Positions 3,885-20,657 of a stretch of 20,657 nucleotides of DNA are shown here, in pieces. Each line of letters begins with the position of its first letter. The stretch's first letter is position 1. Origin of the DNA: a virus. The stretch spans positions 1 through 20,657 of IMG/VR virus record IMGVR_UViG_3300029813_000066; one strand, given 5' to 3'. Position numbers and translations under genes: made by a program. The notes under the pieces are model-generated. The model made no database searches. It worked only from the letters and a program-made list of their open reading frames with translations, and was not told the origin of the DNA.

Positions 3885-5807
3885 TTATCCTAATACAGAC
3901 ACTTTTGTCTCTGACATTTTTTCAATAATTGTACCCAATAACGCAGCCACTGTTTTATCCTGTACCTCTTGTTCCTTTTTCTTGGCTGTAGTAGGTGATT
4001 CCAAAGAAAATCTCCGCAAGGAAATTTGTTGGCCCATTTGTTGGGATGCTTTATCAGCTGTTTTAAATTCAGGCATTTTAAATTCAGGCATCTCAAATTT
4101 AGGGGCAACCATCTGCGGCCTTTTACCACTCATCTTGGCAAAGGCTCCTATGAGATAATCCTTTTCTTTTTTTGCAATCTTTTTTCTATAATCTTCATCC
4201 AACTTGCCTATTTTATCATAATATTGCTTCCATCTATTCTCAGTATTTCTTAAACTGGCTTCCACTTCATAACCAAATAAATCTGTTGAATCAAATAATT
4301 CAGACATACCTAATGTAACTATAGCCGTCACACCTCTTACTGATTTAAGAAACACACGATACATTGTGGCCGCAACTTCAGTGGCTACTATTTCTAAAGT
4401 AAGTAACATGGCCATCACTTTTTCAATGCCCCATTCCCATTCTGAAAAAATAAAAGTGGTATCATTCATAGCATCATATATTGTCCAAATAGCAGCACCT
4501 GCGGCTAATATTATTGGAATGATGCCTCCGAACATAGTAAACAATCCTATAATACTACCAATAGCACTGGCTACAAATCCCAATATTATAAGTAAAGGCC
4601 CAATTGCAGCAACTGCTCCTGCTATTATTAAAATCCATTGCTTTTGTGTTTCATTTAAATTCCGAAACCACGTAGTGGCCTGTTTCACATATCCACCAAG
4701 TTTAAGTATCCAAGGAGCTAACATTTGACCAATTTCAATACCAACAAGTTTTACATTGTTCCAAAGTATTTTCATTTGTGAACTAAAGGATTTCATTTGC
4801 TTATCCGAAACCTTTTGAGTTATGCCTCCTGCTTTTTCAAGGCTGTCTTGATATCTTCTGATATTCTCTTCCAATCCTAAAAGAGGGAGGATGGCACCCT
4901 GTATACGTGCTTCAAATCCCAACATCTTTAAAGTTGCTGATTTCTGAATAGCTCCCATTCCAGCTGTGGCTTTTCCTATATCTTCCATAATGTCTGCAAT
5001 TGGTGCAAGATCACCTTGAGCATTTCGTGTTCTTATTCCTAATTTCTTAAACGCACCTGCATTATCATTTACACCTTTGATTAAGAGCCTTAACATTCGG
5101 GCAAACATATTACCAGCAAGTTGAGCTTTAATTCCCTGATCAGCATAAGCCGCAAGGACAGCAACACCTTCCTCCATCTTTATATTGTAGGACTTCATTG
5201 CAGTACCAGCCTTAGAAGTCAAAGCTGTGGAGAACTGTTGTACAGTAGCATTAGCAAGGGTGTTTGCTTTTACTAACACATCAGACACCCGGGTCATATT
5301 CAACATGTTCTGATTTGAATCAGCCACAGTCAACCCTAGAGCTGATTGAGCATCCGTTAACAGATCTGTTGCTGTAGCCATATCGAACATGCCCGCAATA
5401 CCAAATCTATTTACCGTACCTAATGCGGCCACAGATTGTTCAGCATCTAAACCTGCAGATGCTAGGAAGAAATAGGATTTGGCCAAATCTGTCGCTGAAG
5501 TAATAGTTTGGGAGGACATGACCTTTGCTGTGTCCTCCATCTCTTTCCTCATAACCGGGCCAACATCATCCATAATAGCAAGAGACTGGGTCATTGCATC
5601 ATCGAAATTAGCAAAAGCCTTTACAGCAGCACCTCCTACAATCGCAAGAGGAGCCGTAACATATAAGCTCATTGATCTTCCAGTCCTACGAAACTTTTTG
5701 CCCATTTTGTCTAAACGTGCTGATGCTTTATTCATTGCTCTGGTATACTGGGAAACGTCTGCTAACAGATGGATATTTAAGCTGCCAAGATTCATACTAA
5801 ATCCCAT
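3885..5807 (-). CDS. Tape measure protein, TP901 type (640 aa)
   Basis: The tape measure spans the tail lumen, sets tail length and is released during DNA ejection. Residues about 60-330 match the TP901-family core, including AFANFDDAMTQS, MSSQTITSATDLAKSYFFLASAGL, the helix MEEGVAVLAAYADQGIKAQL and LGFEARIQGAILPLL. Residues about 391-446 hold a strongly hydrophobic stretch with two to three membrane-like segments, typical of these proteins. A short F-x-MPEFK repeat occurs at 571-582, followed by a Lys/Gln-rich tail. At 640 residues it is modest for the family; at about 0.15 nm per residue a tail near 95 nm would be expected (inference). The ATG at 5807 overlaps the TAA of the chaperone GT frame (TAATG) and has AAGGA 8 bases upstream. 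Confidence 0.95.
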   Translation of the reverse strand: MGFSMNLGSLNIHLLADVSQYTRAMNKASARLDKMGKKFRRTGRSMSLYVTAPLAIVGGAAVKAFANFDDAMTQSLAIMDDVGPVMRKEMEDTAKVMSSQTITSATDLAKSYFFLASAGLDAEQSVAALGTVNRFGIAGMFDMATATDLLTDAQSALGLTVADSNQNMLNMTRVSDVLVKANTLANATVQQFSTALTSKAGTAMKSYNIKMEEGVAVLAAYADQGIKAQLAGNMFARMLRLLIKGVNDNAGAFKKLGIRTRNAQGDLAPIADIMEDIGKATAGMGAIQKSATLKMLGFEARIQGAILPLLGLEENIRRYQDSLEKAGGITQKVSDKQMKSFSSQMKILWNNVKLVGIEIGQMLAPWILKLGGYVKQATTWFRNLNETQKQWILIIAGAVAAIGPLLIILGFVASAIGSIIGLFTMFGGIIPIILAAGAAIWTIYDAMNDTTFIFSEWEWGIEKVMAMLLTLEIVATEVAATMYRVFLKSVRGVTAIVTLGMSELFDSTDLFGYEVEASLRNTENRWKQYYDKIGKLDEDYRKKIAKKEKDYLIGAFAKMSGKRPQMVAPKFEMPEFKMPEFKTADKASQQMGQQISLRRFSLESPTTAKKKEQEVQDKTVAALLGTIIEKMSETKVSVLG

Positions 5808-6525
5808 TATTTATTTCCTTTAATAGGAGGTTTTCTTGTTTTAACTTTCTTCTTACCCACTCCTGCTAGACCCTTCCAATAATTCTGACTGTTCTGAAGT
5901 CTCAGTTCTTTAGACATAGGCTTTTTCTCCTTTTCCGAAACAAATTTCAACATACTTCCTTCGGCAGTTACTTTGGAAGGATACTTTGCCCATCCTTTGA
6001 TTACATTCGCAGAGATCTGAGCCTGATAAAAATCTTCTCTGCGTTGCTGTTTCCATTCTTTCCAATCTAAAAACCATATCCATTTTAAAAATCCTGTTGA
6101 AGTTAAGGTGTCCTGAGCTTCATCAACAGTCCGGGTCAGGTGAGATGCTACTCTATACCATTGTAGCTCCTCACCTTCTAATCGTTTTTTTCTGTGTCCG
6201 AAGCATTCTGATCCAACCCCGACAGTTTCTGCGATCTTTCAAAAAGCTCCTGCTGGGCTGAGGCTGGCATACTTTCAATACAGTCTTTGGTAACAGATTC
6301 ACCGTTGGCAAACAAACTGATTTCCAAAAGGTCTGCCTGAAATCCATCAAAATTCTTGATTCCAATAACCTTTCCATCCTTGCTCACCTTTGCCCGGTTA
6401 GTCATCTTATCAAGGTATGTATTCCGCTCTTTTCCAGTAAGTTCTCGCAATATCCATTTCTCATCATCGTCTATTTCAACACTTACTTCTTTCAGTTTAA
6501 GTGTCACTTTCATTACTTCACTCAT
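5807..6525 (-). CDS. Tail assembly chaperone GT fusion, made by -1 frameshift (about 239 aa)
   Basis: This is the extended form of the tail chaperone. Ribosomes translating G reach the heptamer A_AAA_AAC at 6190-6184, slip back one base, and continue from CGA (6184-6182) through 125 sense codons to TAA at 5809-5807, giving 114 + 125 residues. I translated the -1 frame by hand and found no internal stop; it starts RLEGEELQWYRVASHLTRTV and is rich in Trp and charged residues, as expected for the T part of lambda GT-type proteins. There is no ATG, GTG or TTG in the first 77 codons of this frame, so frameshifting is the only evident way to express it. GT is known to bind the tape measure and recruit tail tube subunits. 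Its stop overlaps the tape measure ATG. Confidence 0.9.
6138..6176 (-). promoter_or_regulatory. Frameshift-stimulating stem-loop downstream of the slippery site
   Basis: Starting 7 bases after the slippery heptamer, AGGTGAG (6176-6170) pairs perfectly with CTCACCT (6144-6138), then a G-U pair (6169/6145), one A-A mismatch (6168/6146), then GCTAC (6167-6163) pairs with GTAGC (6151-6147). An 11-base loop closes the structure. A 5-9 base spacer and a 12-14 bp stem is the usual arrangement for stimulators of -1 frameshifting. The G stop codon lies in the spacer. Confidence 0.88.
6178..6525 (-). CDS. Tail assembly chaperone G (115 aa)
   Basis: The zero-frame product of the tail chaperone locus, lying between the tail tube and tape measure genes as in most siphoviruses. 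The protein has a beta-like N terminus (VTLKLKEVSVEIDDDEKWILRELTGKER) followed by helices, matching small phage tail-assembly chaperones that coat the tape measure during tail assembly and are absent from the mature virion. The ATG at 6525 is preceded by AAGGA with a 7-base gap. The gene ends ...DTEKND with TAG at 6180-6178, just after the A_AAA_AAC slippery sequence. Family assignment rests on position, size and the frameshift rather than on a catalytic motif. Confidence 0.9.
   Translation of the reverse strand: MSEVMKVTLKLKEVSVEIDDDEKWILRELTGKERNTYLDKMTNRAKVSKDGKVIGIKNFDGFQADLLEISLFANGESVTKDCIESMPASAQQELFERSQKLSGLDQNASDTEKND
6184..6190 (-). promoter_or_regulatory. -1 ribosomal frameshift slippery heptamer A_AAA_AAC
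   Basis: On the minus strand the zero-frame codons are GAA-AAA-AAC-GAT-TAG, so the heptamer A AAA AAC is in the X XXY YYZ register needed for tandem slippage. It lies two codons before the G stop and opens directly into the long -1 frame. This heptamer is a classical efficient bacterial slippery sequence. Confidence 0.93.
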
Positions 6526-6571: not shown

Positions 6572-6591
6572 CCTAATCACAATTGATTAAG
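6572..6591. repeat. Short inverted repeat at the end of the tail tube gene
   Basis: CCTAATCA (6572-6579) and TGATTAAG (6584-6591) form an 8-bp stem with one wobble pair and a 4-base loop, overlapping the tail tube stop codon. No T-tract follows on the minus strand, so it is not a convincing terminator. It might protect or process the abundant tail tube message, but chance in AT-rich DNA is also possible. Confidence 0.35.
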
Positions 6592-7009
6592 CAGAATAAG
6601 CAGGGGCAGTCTCTACATCCGAATCATTAAGATTGGATGCAATAATAGTAAGCTCAGCAGTAGGTTGTTCACCTTCAACAAGAGCATTAGGAATAAATTC
6701 ATCAATCCATCCCCAGAATATAAGGGTGGAACTGTTCGGAAAAGTGACTGTAATTGCCTGGTTGGTATTCGTCATTGCTATAATCTCATCATAAAAAGCA
6801 GGATCATAGACTATAGTTGCACCACCCTCTAAAAGAGTGAGCAAACTCTTTGGGCTCTTTGTACGCCACGCTGTATTTCGCATAGTGGAAACATCTATTT
6901 CTCCACCTCCACTCACACCTCCGGGTGTAACCTCTTTTTCTTCCATTTCCACATCACTATCCTCTGCGAAAGCAAGTAATGTTGCGAAACCATCTTTTAA
7001 AATAGCCAT
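6587..7009 (-). CDS. Major tail tube protein (140 aa)
   Basis: The product would polymerise into the hollow tail tube. The sequence is beta-rich with features of siphovirus tube subunits: an N-terminal GFATLLAFAED strand, an acidic loop with EVTPGGVSGGGEIDVSTMRN, a helix (SPKSLLTLLEGG), then YDPAFYDEII and the strand pair QAITVTFPNSSTLIFWGWIDEF followed by PTAELTIIASN. Length is typical for the family. It lies after the tail terminator and before the G/GT chaperone, the canonical position, and has a strong AAGGAG ribosome site (AAGGAGAATAAAA-ATG). No sheath gene lies next to it, supporting a non-contractile tail. Confidence 0.85.
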   Translation of the reverse strand: MAILKDGFATLLAFAEDSDVEMEEKEVTPGGVSGGGEIDVSTMRNTAWRTKSPKSLLTLLEGGATIVYDPAFYDEIIAMTNTNQAITVTFPNSSTLIFWGWIDEFIPNALVEGEQPTAELTIIASNLNDSDVETAPAYSA

Positions 7010-7021
7010 TTTTATTCTCCT

Positions 7022-7462
7022 TTAAAGTACAGTTAAAGTAACAAGAAAATTCACACTGAATATACTTCTTCTTTTTGAACCTTCTTCTTGAGACACTATT
7101 ACCACATCAGTAGTTTGTGTCACATTATTTATTTCATAAGTTGTGTCTAATATAACTTCTTCTTCATTTTGTATTTCAGCCAAAGCATCCGCCAAATCTT
7201 GAGCCTTGGCATATCCCACATTATATTCAGTAGCACGCAAGAGGATCTGAAACCCTTGATGAAACAAAGATACACCTGATTCCATACTGCGGCCATCTTT
7301 TATTCCAGCAGTATCCATACAAGCCACTATATCATCCTTAACTTCTGGACTATCTGGCAATATTCCTGTATACACAGGCCAGTCACCACTTTCATCAGGA
7401 GCAGTCAATAATCCTTCTCCAATTAAATATTGAGCTATGATATAAGCTGGAGTATGATTCAT
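7022..7462 (-). CDS. Tail terminator / minor capsid-like protein (146 aa)
   Basis: A tail terminator caps the tube and joins it to the head. The protein starts with a helix (TPAYIIAQYLIGEGLLTAP), followed by WPVYTGILPDSPEV, a central FQILLRATEYNVGYAKAQDLADALAEI segment and C-terminal strands, a pattern common in lambda gpU-like and minor capsid-like phage terminators. Size and position, directly between the gp10-like protein and the tail tube, are as expected. The ATG at 7462 overlaps the upstream stop as ATGA, showing translational coupling. Assignment rests on pattern and synteny, as this family is highly divergent. Confidence 0.7.
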   Translation of the reverse strand: MNHTPAYIIAQYLIGEGLLTAPDESGDWPVYTGILPDSPEVKDDIVACMDTAGIKDGRSMESGVSLFHQGFQILLRATEYNVGYAKAQDLADALAEIQNEEEVILDTTYEINNVTQTTDVVIVSQEEGSKRRSIFSVNFLVTLTVL

Positions 7463-13132: not shown

Positions 13133-13639
13133 TTAGTCTTTCTTCAAATTGCCGTTTGCTTCTGCAGACGCATGAACTGCTGTCAAAGCTCTTTTTAAAT
13201 CATCGGGAGGAGTCAACTTCAATTTCGGTTCCAACTCGATAAGATATGCAAGAGCATTATTTATTTTCGACAATCCCTTATTTTCAACATCGTCAGGGAT
13301 TTCCTTTTCAGCATACTTCACAGCCTGCATAATAGAAGGGCCAAATTTAAGAACTAACGCTTTCCATTTTGGCTTAGCTGTAAATACTTTCCCAAGAATA
13401 AATGATATCAAGGAAATAACTATTGTAATCCCAAGTGGAGAATTCAAGAAAGACACTATCACTTGACCAATAGCTCCTTCCTCTTTTACCTCTTCTTCAA
13501 GAATCACTTCAGGTTCTACACCATCCACATCTTCAGCAACAGGAAGTTCATCCTGTGCCATCACAATTGATATACCAATAAATGCTGAGCCAAAAAACAC
13601 AGCAAAAATTAGTATAGCAAACAACACAATGTTTCTCAT
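13133..13639 (-). CDS. Membrane protein with two hydrophobic segments (168 aa)
   Basis: Residues 4-27 form a signal or membrane helix ending VMA-Q, a possible signal peptidase site. Residues about 30-56 are acidic (EVILEEEVKEEG), then residues about 60-85 form a second hydrophobic helix (SPLGITIVISLISFILGKVF), followed by a basic, helical C-terminal domain of about 80 residues. The family is not recognised. The ATG at 13639 overlaps the upstream stop (ATGA), so it is coupled to the MptE-like gene. Together with the following small ORF and lipoprotein-like gene it makes a run of three membrane-associated products, which could be a lysis or superinfection-exclusion cassette; this is inference. 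Confidence 0.75.
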   Translation of the reverse strand: MRNIVLFAILIFAVFFGSAFIGISIVMAQDELPVAEDVDGVEPEVILEEEVKEEGAIGQVIVSFLNSPLGITIVISLISFILGKVFTAKPKWKALVLKFGPSIMQAVKYAEKEIPDDVENKGLSKINNALAYLIELEPKLKLTPPDDLKRALTAVHASAEANGNLKKD

Positions 13640-14280
13640 GATACTTTCTCCTTACAAAAATGAGACTTTAAACTTTCCTTTGGAAACATATTCAATACAC
13701 TCGTTCCATCCTCAAGATTAATTACTTGACGTCCTGGAAAAAATTCCTTCAAACCTTTATTTAAATTAGTCATACCTCGTATAAAACGATTGTAGGTTTT
13801 GGCATTAGGTTTGTGATTATATGCATTGTGAAAATTTCCTTTTCCTTCTTTGGACACTTGCATATCAAATCCTAATAAATAAATGGGATCTGCACCAAAA
13901 AGCAGTGCCAAATTTATGGCAACTGATCCTGTATTCCCATTCCAGGCTAACCCGTCAACAGCTATACCTTTCAATTGTTTTTTCATGCATTTAAGCCAGG
14001 GAGGAATTTCTTTTTGATTTATGCGACTTGAATTGGTAATGACCCAACCACCATTGTTTACATAAGACTCAAGTCCAGTCTTATGCTTGTCTAAAAAAGC
14101 TGAGTCACCAAAGATAGTAATGGGAACAATTCCAACACCTATCATAAAAGCCACATTACAGCCTAGCACATTTCTACTTTTTAGACTATTCCAAAGAAAG
14201 CCTTCAAGAGAAGGGCCACCACCTATAATATAACAGGGTTCATCTTCCCATATTGGATCTGGGAACCATCTTTTTCCCAT
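13636..14280 (-). CDS. MptE/DUF115-like, sialyltransferase-fold-like protein (214 aa)
   Basis: Two motifs place this protein. Residues 18-25 (IIGGGPSL) are the N-terminal Gly-rich nucleotide-binding loop of DUF115/MptE-like and GT42-like proteins. Residues 115-140 contain GNTGSVAINLALLFG and DPIYLLGFDM, the second conserved block, where the family typically has S/T-G, then A-x-x-x-G-x-x-x-I-Y-L-x-G-x-D. A short IVPITIFGDSAFL segment lies between. Known relatives include the archaeal pterin diphosphokinase MptE and bacterial glycosyltransferases that modify surface structures, so activity could be nucleotide transfer or sugar transfer. The neighbouring GDP-fucose synthase makes a glycosylation role attractive but unproven. 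It starts 6 bases after the upstream stop. Confidence 0.75.
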   Translation of the reverse strand: MGKRWFPDPIWEDEPCYIIGGGPSLEGFLWNSLKSRNVLGCNVAFMIGVGIVPITIFGDSAFLDKHKTGLESYVNNGGWVITNSSRINQKEIPPWLKCMKKQLKGIAVDGLAWNGNTGSVAINLALLFGADPIYLLGFDMQVSKEGKGNFHNAYNHKPNAKTYNRFIRGMTNLNKGLKEFFPGRQVINLEDGTSVLNMFPKESLKSHFCKEKVS

Positions 14281-18381: not shown

Positions 18382-18570
18382 TTACCCGTACTTTTTACCA
18401 GGTGGTTTCATTGTTTCCTCTGAACGTACTATGTCAATCATGCCATTTTTAAATTCTACAGTTATTTTTCCAAACCACCCTCTTTTTTGTGCTGATACTA
18501 AATTAGCAGTCACCCATTGCAACTCTTCTTCCTGTTTCCTCAATACATTTGGGTTCTTAATTTTGTCCAT
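18382..18570 (-). CDS. Small DUF2292-like protein (62 aa)
   Basis: A basic 62-residue protein. The C-terminal half (WFGKITVEFKNGMIDIVRSE) has the G-K-I-T-x-x-F-x-x-G-x-I-x-x-V-x-x-x-E pattern of small DUF2292-like proteins, a compact beta-hairpin family of unknown function found in bacteria and phages. The ATG at 18570 overlaps the end of the epimerase gene by 14 bases and has a strong GGAGG 4-5 bases upstream, so it is likely translated. It is the last gene before the terminator-like hairpin. Confidence 0.65.
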   Translation of the reverse strand: MDKIKNPNVLRKQEEELQWVTANLVSAQKRGWFGKITVEFKNGMIDIVRSEETMKPPGKKYG

Positions 18571-19477
18571 TGTCCCTCCACCACTTAATAGTTCTTTTCA
18601 ATCCTTCTTCTAAACCCACTTGTGGCTTCCAATCTATAAATCGCTCAGCTCTGGTGATGTCTAACATACGAGAGGGTTGTCCATCGGGTTTGCTTTCATC
18701 CCATTTGTAGATACCGGCATATCCCATCAAGTTGCCTATCAAATGAACCAAATCCATAATACTTATTTCTTGCCCGGTTCCTAAATTCATAGGTTCTGGA
18801 CTGTCGTATTGTTCTAGGGCATCGCAAATACCTTTCGCGCAATCTTCTACATACAAAAATTCCCTGGTTGCATTACCTGTACCCCAACAATTGACTTCTT
18901 TCTCATCATGCTGTATTGCTTCCTCTATTTTCCTAATGAGAGCCGGAATAACATGAGAAGATCTGGGATCGAAATTGTCCCCGGGGCCATAAAGGTTCAC
19001 TGGAAGGAGATAAATAGCATTGAATCCATATTGCTGACGGTATGCCTGTGCTTGGACCAACAACATCTTCTTAGCAAGGCCGTATGGGGCATTAGTTCTC
19101 TCTGGATACCCATTCCACAAGTCCTCTTCCTTGAACGGTATGGGAGTATGTTTGGGATATGCACAGACAGTTCCAACAGCCACAAATTTACTGACATCAT
19201 ATTGCCAAGATGTATGCATCAGCTCTATACCCATGCTTAAATTCTGGTAGAAAAACTCTGCTGGCCTTTTCTGATTGGCTCCTATACCTCCTACCACAGC
19301 AGCAAGATGAATAATAGAATCCATTTCATGTCTGGAAAGAATCCACTCAACAAATTTCTTATTCAACAGATCCATGTTCTCATGAGATGGATCAAATACC
19401 TCATGTCCACGATCCCGAAGGATTTGACAAACATGTTTTCCTAAAAAGCCTTGTCCACCTGTAACCAATACCTTCAT
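18557..19477 (-). CDS. fcl: GDP-L-fucose synthase-like sugar-nucleotide epimerase/reductase (306 aa)
   Basis: Converts GDP-4-keto-6-deoxymannose to GDP-L-fucose with NADPH, if it matches its closest family. The N-terminal nucleotide-binding loop GGQGFLG (residues 7-13) is present. Catalytic positions of the family align as Thr103 (in place of Ser) with Cys105 in GTVCAYP, Tyr132 and Lys136 in YGLAK, and His175 in SSHVIPAL. Further family blocks are NLYGPGDNF (161-169), WGTGNATREFLYVEDCA (198-214) and NLGTGQE (231-237). Length is normal for the family and the gene appears intact. It follows the preceding stop directly (AAGGA, 7 bases). The Ser-to-Thr change is the only departure at an active-site position. 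Metabolic genes in structural operons are uncommon, suggesting acquisition from a host. Confidence 0.92.
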   Translation of the reverse strand: MKVLVTGGQGFLGKHVCQILRDRGHEVFDPSHENMDLLNKKFVEWILSRHEMDSIIHLAAVVGGIGANQKRPAEFFYQNLSMGIELMHTSWQYDVSKFVAVGTVCAYPKHTPIPFKEEDLWNGYPERTNAPYGLAKKMLLVQAQAYRQQYGFNAIYLLPVNLYGPGDNFDPRSSHVIPALIRKIEEAIQHDEKEVNCWGTGNATREFLYVEDCAKGICDALEQYDSPEPMNLGTGQEISIMDLVHLIGNLMGYAGIYKWDESKPDGQPSRMLDITRAERFIDWKPQVGLEEGLKRTIKWWRDNGQN

Positions 19478-19936: not shown

Positions 19937-20123
19937 CAAATTGAATACCGTTATCACCTTCAATAGGCTTTAAATGTAAATTATCTCCATACGCTATATC
20001 ATCGGGGATGCCGTTTGGGAAAGCTCTACAATAATTCACCTCTGTTTTCTCTGTCCCATCTGGCTGAACTACACCTAGAAAATTAACACAATTTCTTTTT
20101 GAACAATTTGGTTCTCTCATCAT
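19911..20123 (-). CDS. Small Cys-rich protein (70 aa)
   Basis: The start is placed at the ATG at 20123, which overlaps the upstream stop as ATGA and has AGGGA about 8 bases before; a longer frame to 20141 exists but lacks a ribosome site. The product has Cys7, Cys12 and Cys32 and His50, within NCSKRNCVNF and YCRAFPNGIPDDI. The C-x-A-F-P-x-G-I-P-x-x-I pattern recurs in small phage and bacterial proteins of unknown function; metal binding by the cysteines is a reasonable inference. It couples the head-morphogenesis gene to the next gene. Confidence 0.75.
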   Translation of the reverse strand: MMREPNCSKRNCVNFLGVVQPDGTEKTEVNYCRAFPNGIPDDIAYGDNLHLKPIEGDNGIQFVEKEKENG

Positions 20124-20657
20124 AATGATTTCCCTATCCATTTATCCATATATTTTTCTATTGGTTTTTGAAGAAATCCTCTTTTGTAATAAGGAGATGT
20201 GTACGCACTAAAGGATTCAGCAAAAACCTCCTTGAGATTGGTGCTTCCATACTGACTTACAGAATGTTGCAATGAAGGATCAATTAAATTCTCCCACTGT
20301 ATTCCAGCTTGATAACCCAAAGATTCATTAACTGCATGTCCCACTTCGTGTCTTATTGTCCCACTAAATGACTCATCAACTAGGTATTTATTCTTTCCTA
20401 ATTTTTTCTGAATCATAGAAATTCCTGATTCACTTTTTGCAAATTCAACTCCTTTGCCTGGAACAAATCTTCCAATACCATCTTCTGTACCCGGAAGCAC
20501 CTTTGATTTAAAGAATGAAAATCTTTCAACAATATCATCCGCTGCTTCGTGACTCAAAAGTCCTTTTCTTTTTAAAGCATCTCTCACACTATTTGCTGCT
20601 GTGTTAAACTCCTCTGAACCTTTTAACTTCTTTATATCTGATTTAGAATAACCAACA
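20120..20657 (-). CDS. C-terminal zincin metallopeptidase domain of a head-morphogenesis-type protein (partial)
   Basis: The frame is open to the right edge, so the gene is 5'-truncated by the window; about 178 codons are visible. A HEVGH motif lies at 20350-20336, the zinc-binding and catalytic HExxH of zincins, preceded by GTIR and followed about 40 residues later by NLKEVFAESFSAYTS, whose glutamates could supply the third ligand. In phages such domains are often fused behind MuF-like head morphogenesis or portal-proximal proteins, and the position at the start of the head module agrees; the N-terminal domain is outside the window, so the full identity is inferred. The GTG at 20587 is in frame but is probably not the start, since 23 plausible codons precede it. 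Confidence 0.75.
   Translation of the reverse strand, partial: VGYSKSDIKKLKGSEEFNTAANSVRDALKRKGLLSHEAADDIVERFSFFKSKVLPGTEDGIGRFVPGKGVEFAKSESGISMIQKKLGKNKYLVDESFSGTIRHEVGHAVNESLGYQAGIQWENLIDPSLQHSVSQYGSTNLKEVFAESFSAYTSPYYKRGFLQKPIEKYMDKWIGKSL

Follow-up and report, generated by a model that had tools for sequence, protein, structure and literature searches.

In an uncultivated tailed virus, two overlapping reading frames, G and T, directly precede the tape measure gene and are almost certainly joined by programmed −1 ribosomal frameshifting, as in the G/GT pair of lambda. The window, that is, the whole stretch of DNA analysed, was the complete virus record IMGVR_UViG_3300029813_000066 of IMG/VR (20,657 bases), and all features described for the cassette lie on its minus strand. 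Slippage, its rate and the chaperone action of the products are what we infer; the reading itself was supported by an invariant kind of slip site, the −1 relation of the frames, conservation of both halves, a covarying stem beyond coding needs, the chaperone family and fold of G, the tail protein family of T, and the place of the cassette before the tape measure gene.

The zero-frame G open reading frame (6525..6178) encodes 115 aa. As the sequence-only reading had claimed, it ends in GAA AAA AAC GAT TAG, with the stop at 6180-6178, and the heptamer A_AAA_AAC (6190-6184) stands in slip register; both were confirmed base by base. A spacer of 7 nt, read from the sequence (6183..6177), contains the zero-frame TAG and is followed by a stem-loop at 6176..6138. 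Its arms (6176..6163 and 6151..6138) form seven pairs, a G-U pair, an A.A mismatch and five further pairs, thus 13 pairs in total, around an 11-nt loop, exactly as had been proposed. From 6238 onward the −1 frame is free of stops, and the T-like extension (6184..5807) runs for 125 codons past the slip to a TAA at 5809..5807, the last A of which is the A of the tape measure ATG (5807); this overlap and the length of the stop-free frame also agreed with the earlier reading. The tape measure protein gene follows directly downstream (3885..5807; phrog_1533, E 5.6e-80; PF10145, E 2.1e-27).

On the proposed mechanism, most ribosomes would read G and terminate at the TAG, giving the 115-aa chaperone. 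A minority would be held up by the stem-loop while AAA occupies the P site and AAC the A site; these would move back by one base onto AAA/AAA and then read 125 more codons. The predicted product is a GT fusion of 238 aa (239 aa when K-N, the two slipped codons, are both counted), in which K-N-R-L-E spans the junction. If the pair acts as in lambda, the tape measure protein would be coated by many copies of G and few of GT, with the T part recruiting the major tail protein. An arrangement of this type would further be expected to yield both G and GT in unequal amounts, with neither present in the virion.

Protein G matched phrog_344 (tail assembly chaperone, E 2.9e-5), and a Pfam scan of G yielded no match. 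The AlphaFold model of G reached a pLDDT of 82, and its top Foldseek match was the HK97 tail assembly chaperone 2OB9 (E 9e-3, probability 1.00), at 13% identity and with a moderate score. VIA-align Z values for the model were 7.8 for YqbN (3KLU), 7.2 for 2OB9, 6.2 for ORF19 of a Vibrio PICI-like element (5IR0) and 5.4 for RBSTP2171 (3FGX), the next structure scoring 2.0; identities to the three structures other than 2OB9 were 9-18%. For this predicted model, the fold match to chaperones can be regarded as moderate. Matches of G to Plk4_PB1 and NAGLU were weak, fell under the cut-offs and were taken as chance. Every one of the 15 T family members compared matched phrog_337 (tail protein), and differences in T were distributed as 123, 67 and 271 over codon positions 1, 2 and 3, mainly in third positions, indicating that it evolves as a protein in its own frame. 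A tail terminator gene lies upstream (7022..7462, minus strand; PF12691, E 1.1e-9). An open reading frame at 6587..7009 (minus strand), free of PHROGs or Pfam matches, is by its position a candidate for the major tail protein gene, which commonly sits there.

A search of viral contigs with the single G protein returned none, and relatives were found through the tape measure protein, the T region and a T profile instead. The slippery site played no part in selection; the only pattern used in the T profile search was W[YF][RK][LVI]ASHL, which lies downstream of it. T and G profiles were then positioned on every locus. In this way, 97 loci were obtained, corresponding to 61 distinct loci at 90% identity, the window included. 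In five of the 97 (three of the 61), the heptamer stood one codon off the T-profile placement, and the register was set by hand.

Each of the 61 distinct loci carried a canonical X_XXY_YYZ heptamer at the equivalent codon, and five versions occurred: AAAAAAC (49), GGGAAAC (5), AAAAAAA (4), CCCAAAA (2) and CCCAAAC (1). For comparison, canonical in-register heptamers occurred at only 14 of 5673 other positions of the same G genes (0.25%). The XXX triplet switches from A to G or C as a unit, with slip pairing retained, as double slippage predicts. At every locus where both are intact, T lies in the −1 frame of G. The zero-frame stop, one codon past the heptamer in the window, is found 6-11 codons past it, within the stem-loop, in 13 of the 61 loci (e.g., L006, L035, L041 and L045).

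These data bear on two readings that dispense with ribosomal slippage. On the first, G and T would be a single fused gene whose frame break arose in sequencing or assembly. Homopolymers are indeed error-prone, and in L020 (2638-3001) a frame change interrupts G close to a run of T (about 2933-2938), with the slip site intact further downstream; a homopolymer error is the probable cause. However, 61 divergent loci, drawn from many metagenomes, share this −1 break at one and the same codon, several of them without a homopolymer, and the probability left to this reading is virtually nil. The second holds that transcriptional slippage on the A7 run produces mRNAs of altered length in which G is fused to T. 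The window does carry seven consecutive A (6191-6185), but eight of the 61 loci have GGGAAAC, CCCAAAC or CCCAAAA and no run longer than four, and the 3' stem is conserved at a constant distance from the slip site, as a ribosomal stimulator requires; transcriptional slippage is considered extremely improbable.

In the relative L007 (2570-2986), the N-terminus of G is fused in one frame to the C-terminus of T, and an internal deletion takes out the slippery site, the stem and the T core; the fusion is either a natural variant or an assembly chimera.

Both halves of the cassette proved to be conserved proteins, T being 28-53% identical to the window T protein in 14 relatives. Conservation of T alone would also fit a separate gene, with its own and possibly non-canonical start, expressed by reinitiation after the G stop and giving no fusion. 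The sequence-only reading had pointed out that the first 77 codons of the −1 frame lack ATG, GTG and TTG. This held in the window, where none appears before codon 78 of the extension (5953), but several relatives carry an early ATG, GTG or TTG, which would suit a separate start in those loci. In the window itself, however, initiation at codon 78 would lose most of the conserved T domain, and T is conserved from its very first post-slip codon onward (R1 is invariant, followed by G4 and E5). Moreover, a separate gene gives no reason for the heptamer kept in 61 of 61 loci, and among these loci none had a separately started gene without a slippery site, the case named earlier as contradicting frameshifting. 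A separately initiated T is accordingly regarded as very improbable.

Evidence for the stimulatory element of the programmed frameshift came from fold energy, a synonymous-codon null and covariation. The 73-nt region beginning at the heptamer folds at −19.7 kcal/mol, compared with −11.6 for shuffled sequences (z −3.1), and none of 200 shuffles was as stable. Compared with dinucleotide shuffles, z for the stem stretch averaged −3.6 over the 61 loci. Because conserved codons (G-E ... A-S-H-L) run through the stem, its conservation alone proves little. In the synonymous null, T codons were recoded with each locus's own codon usage in 300 rounds for 58 loci. The mean z was −3.51, 84% of the loci beat 95% of their recodings, and the window stem reached −4.64. 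Stem pairs over the 58 loci numbered 601, compared with a null mean of 464 and a null maximum of 488. Codons favouring the stem exceeded expectation (observed/expected: GAG 48/23.7, TCT 33/11.7, CAC 37/22.3, GGT 39/18).

Covariation was thin in a first alignment of 15 sequences; the set of 58 sequences, together with the synonymous-codon test, was decisive. In the latter set, 80.5% of stem cells were paired, compared with 38-55% in slid registers. Stem covariance in relatives, which had been suggested as a check, was found: changes on both sides of the stem occurred in 45 cells, compared with 19.2 expected from shuffles, and 0 of 500 shuffles reached 45. Examples of compensation are GGTGAG/CTCACC replaced by GGTGTG/CACACC (L092) and by GGTGCG/CGCACC (L102). 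About 20% of the cells were unpaired, and in five of the 61 loci the stem z was −1 or weaker. Overall, the stability of the stem goes far beyond the demands of the encoded protein, and the stem covaries.

The arrangement is already known in kind, and the window cassette is a further case of it. The chaperone frameshift of lambda G/GT is described by Levin 1993 and by Xu, Hendrix and Duda 2004, and reviewed in PMC5009743; the same article, citing Xu et al. 2004, presents G-T frameshifting as widely conserved in long-tailed dsDNA phages. As in the window, overlapping reading frames precede the tape measure gene in lambda, G carries an X_XXY_YYZ heptamer close to its 3' end, T is in the −1 frame, and tail genes surround the pair. 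The lambda slip site is G_GGA_AAG. In contrast, the window has A_AAA_AAC, with a conserved stem of 13-14 pairs 7 nt downstream. G-T frameshifting is also assigned to the haloarchaeal viruses HCTV-1, HCTV-2 and HCTV-5, with the slip sites G_GGA_AAC in HCTV-1 and A_AAA_AAC in HCTV-2 (PMC5009743); both heptamers occur in the window clade, and the likeness is drawn from the heptamers. A_AAA_AAC and G_GGA_AAC are reported to be weak in E. coli (PMC4066793), and two HK97-like chaperone genes shifted frame at 6-7% in the measurements of Antonov et al. (PMC3711429). These heptamers combined with a strong stem can be viewed as a mild variant inside the known range. It is possible, if rather unlikely, that an almost obligatory 3' stem is what keeps a slip site weak in E. 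coli working here; this could reflect a host Asn tRNA or ribosome making AAC a better slip codon. The natural variants of heptamer and stem provide a ready test set for a strong stem offsetting a weak slip site.

Unlike those of lambda, G and T of the window gave no tblastn match to named phages, and by sequence comparison the clade appears to be without close relatives among them. The cassette DNA pattern was not found in 84,980 prokaryote genomes. A tape measure protein profile identified three distant loci in bacterial genomes (L106-L108), in which the reading frames upstream of the tape measure gene gave no match to G or T. In one of them, from Dethiobacter (L106:3892-3976) and without detectable G or T homology, a −1 overlap directly preceding the tape measure gene contains AAAAAAC in slip register. 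An archaeal host was considered, given the heptamer and a haloarchaeal virus among the best-scoring named tape measure matches, and was not supported, since the three genome matches are bacterial.

For annotation, ORF callers will lose about half of the GT protein throughout the window clade. The heptamer, the GGTGAG stem and the motif W-[YF]-[RK]-x-A-S-H-L can serve together as a marker of the cassette.

Further genes of the window were recorded. In or beside the structural gene block, a nucleotide-sugar epimerase is encoded at 18557-19477 (phrog_540, PF01370) and a sialyltransferase-like protein at 13636-14280 (phrog_4603); the two are possible virus-carried surface-sugar genes. An open reading frame at 20120-20656 runs past the contig end and contains an HExxH-type motif (HEVGH) with a sub-threshold PF07737 match; this metallopeptidase-like domain possibly belongs to a head morphogenesis protein.
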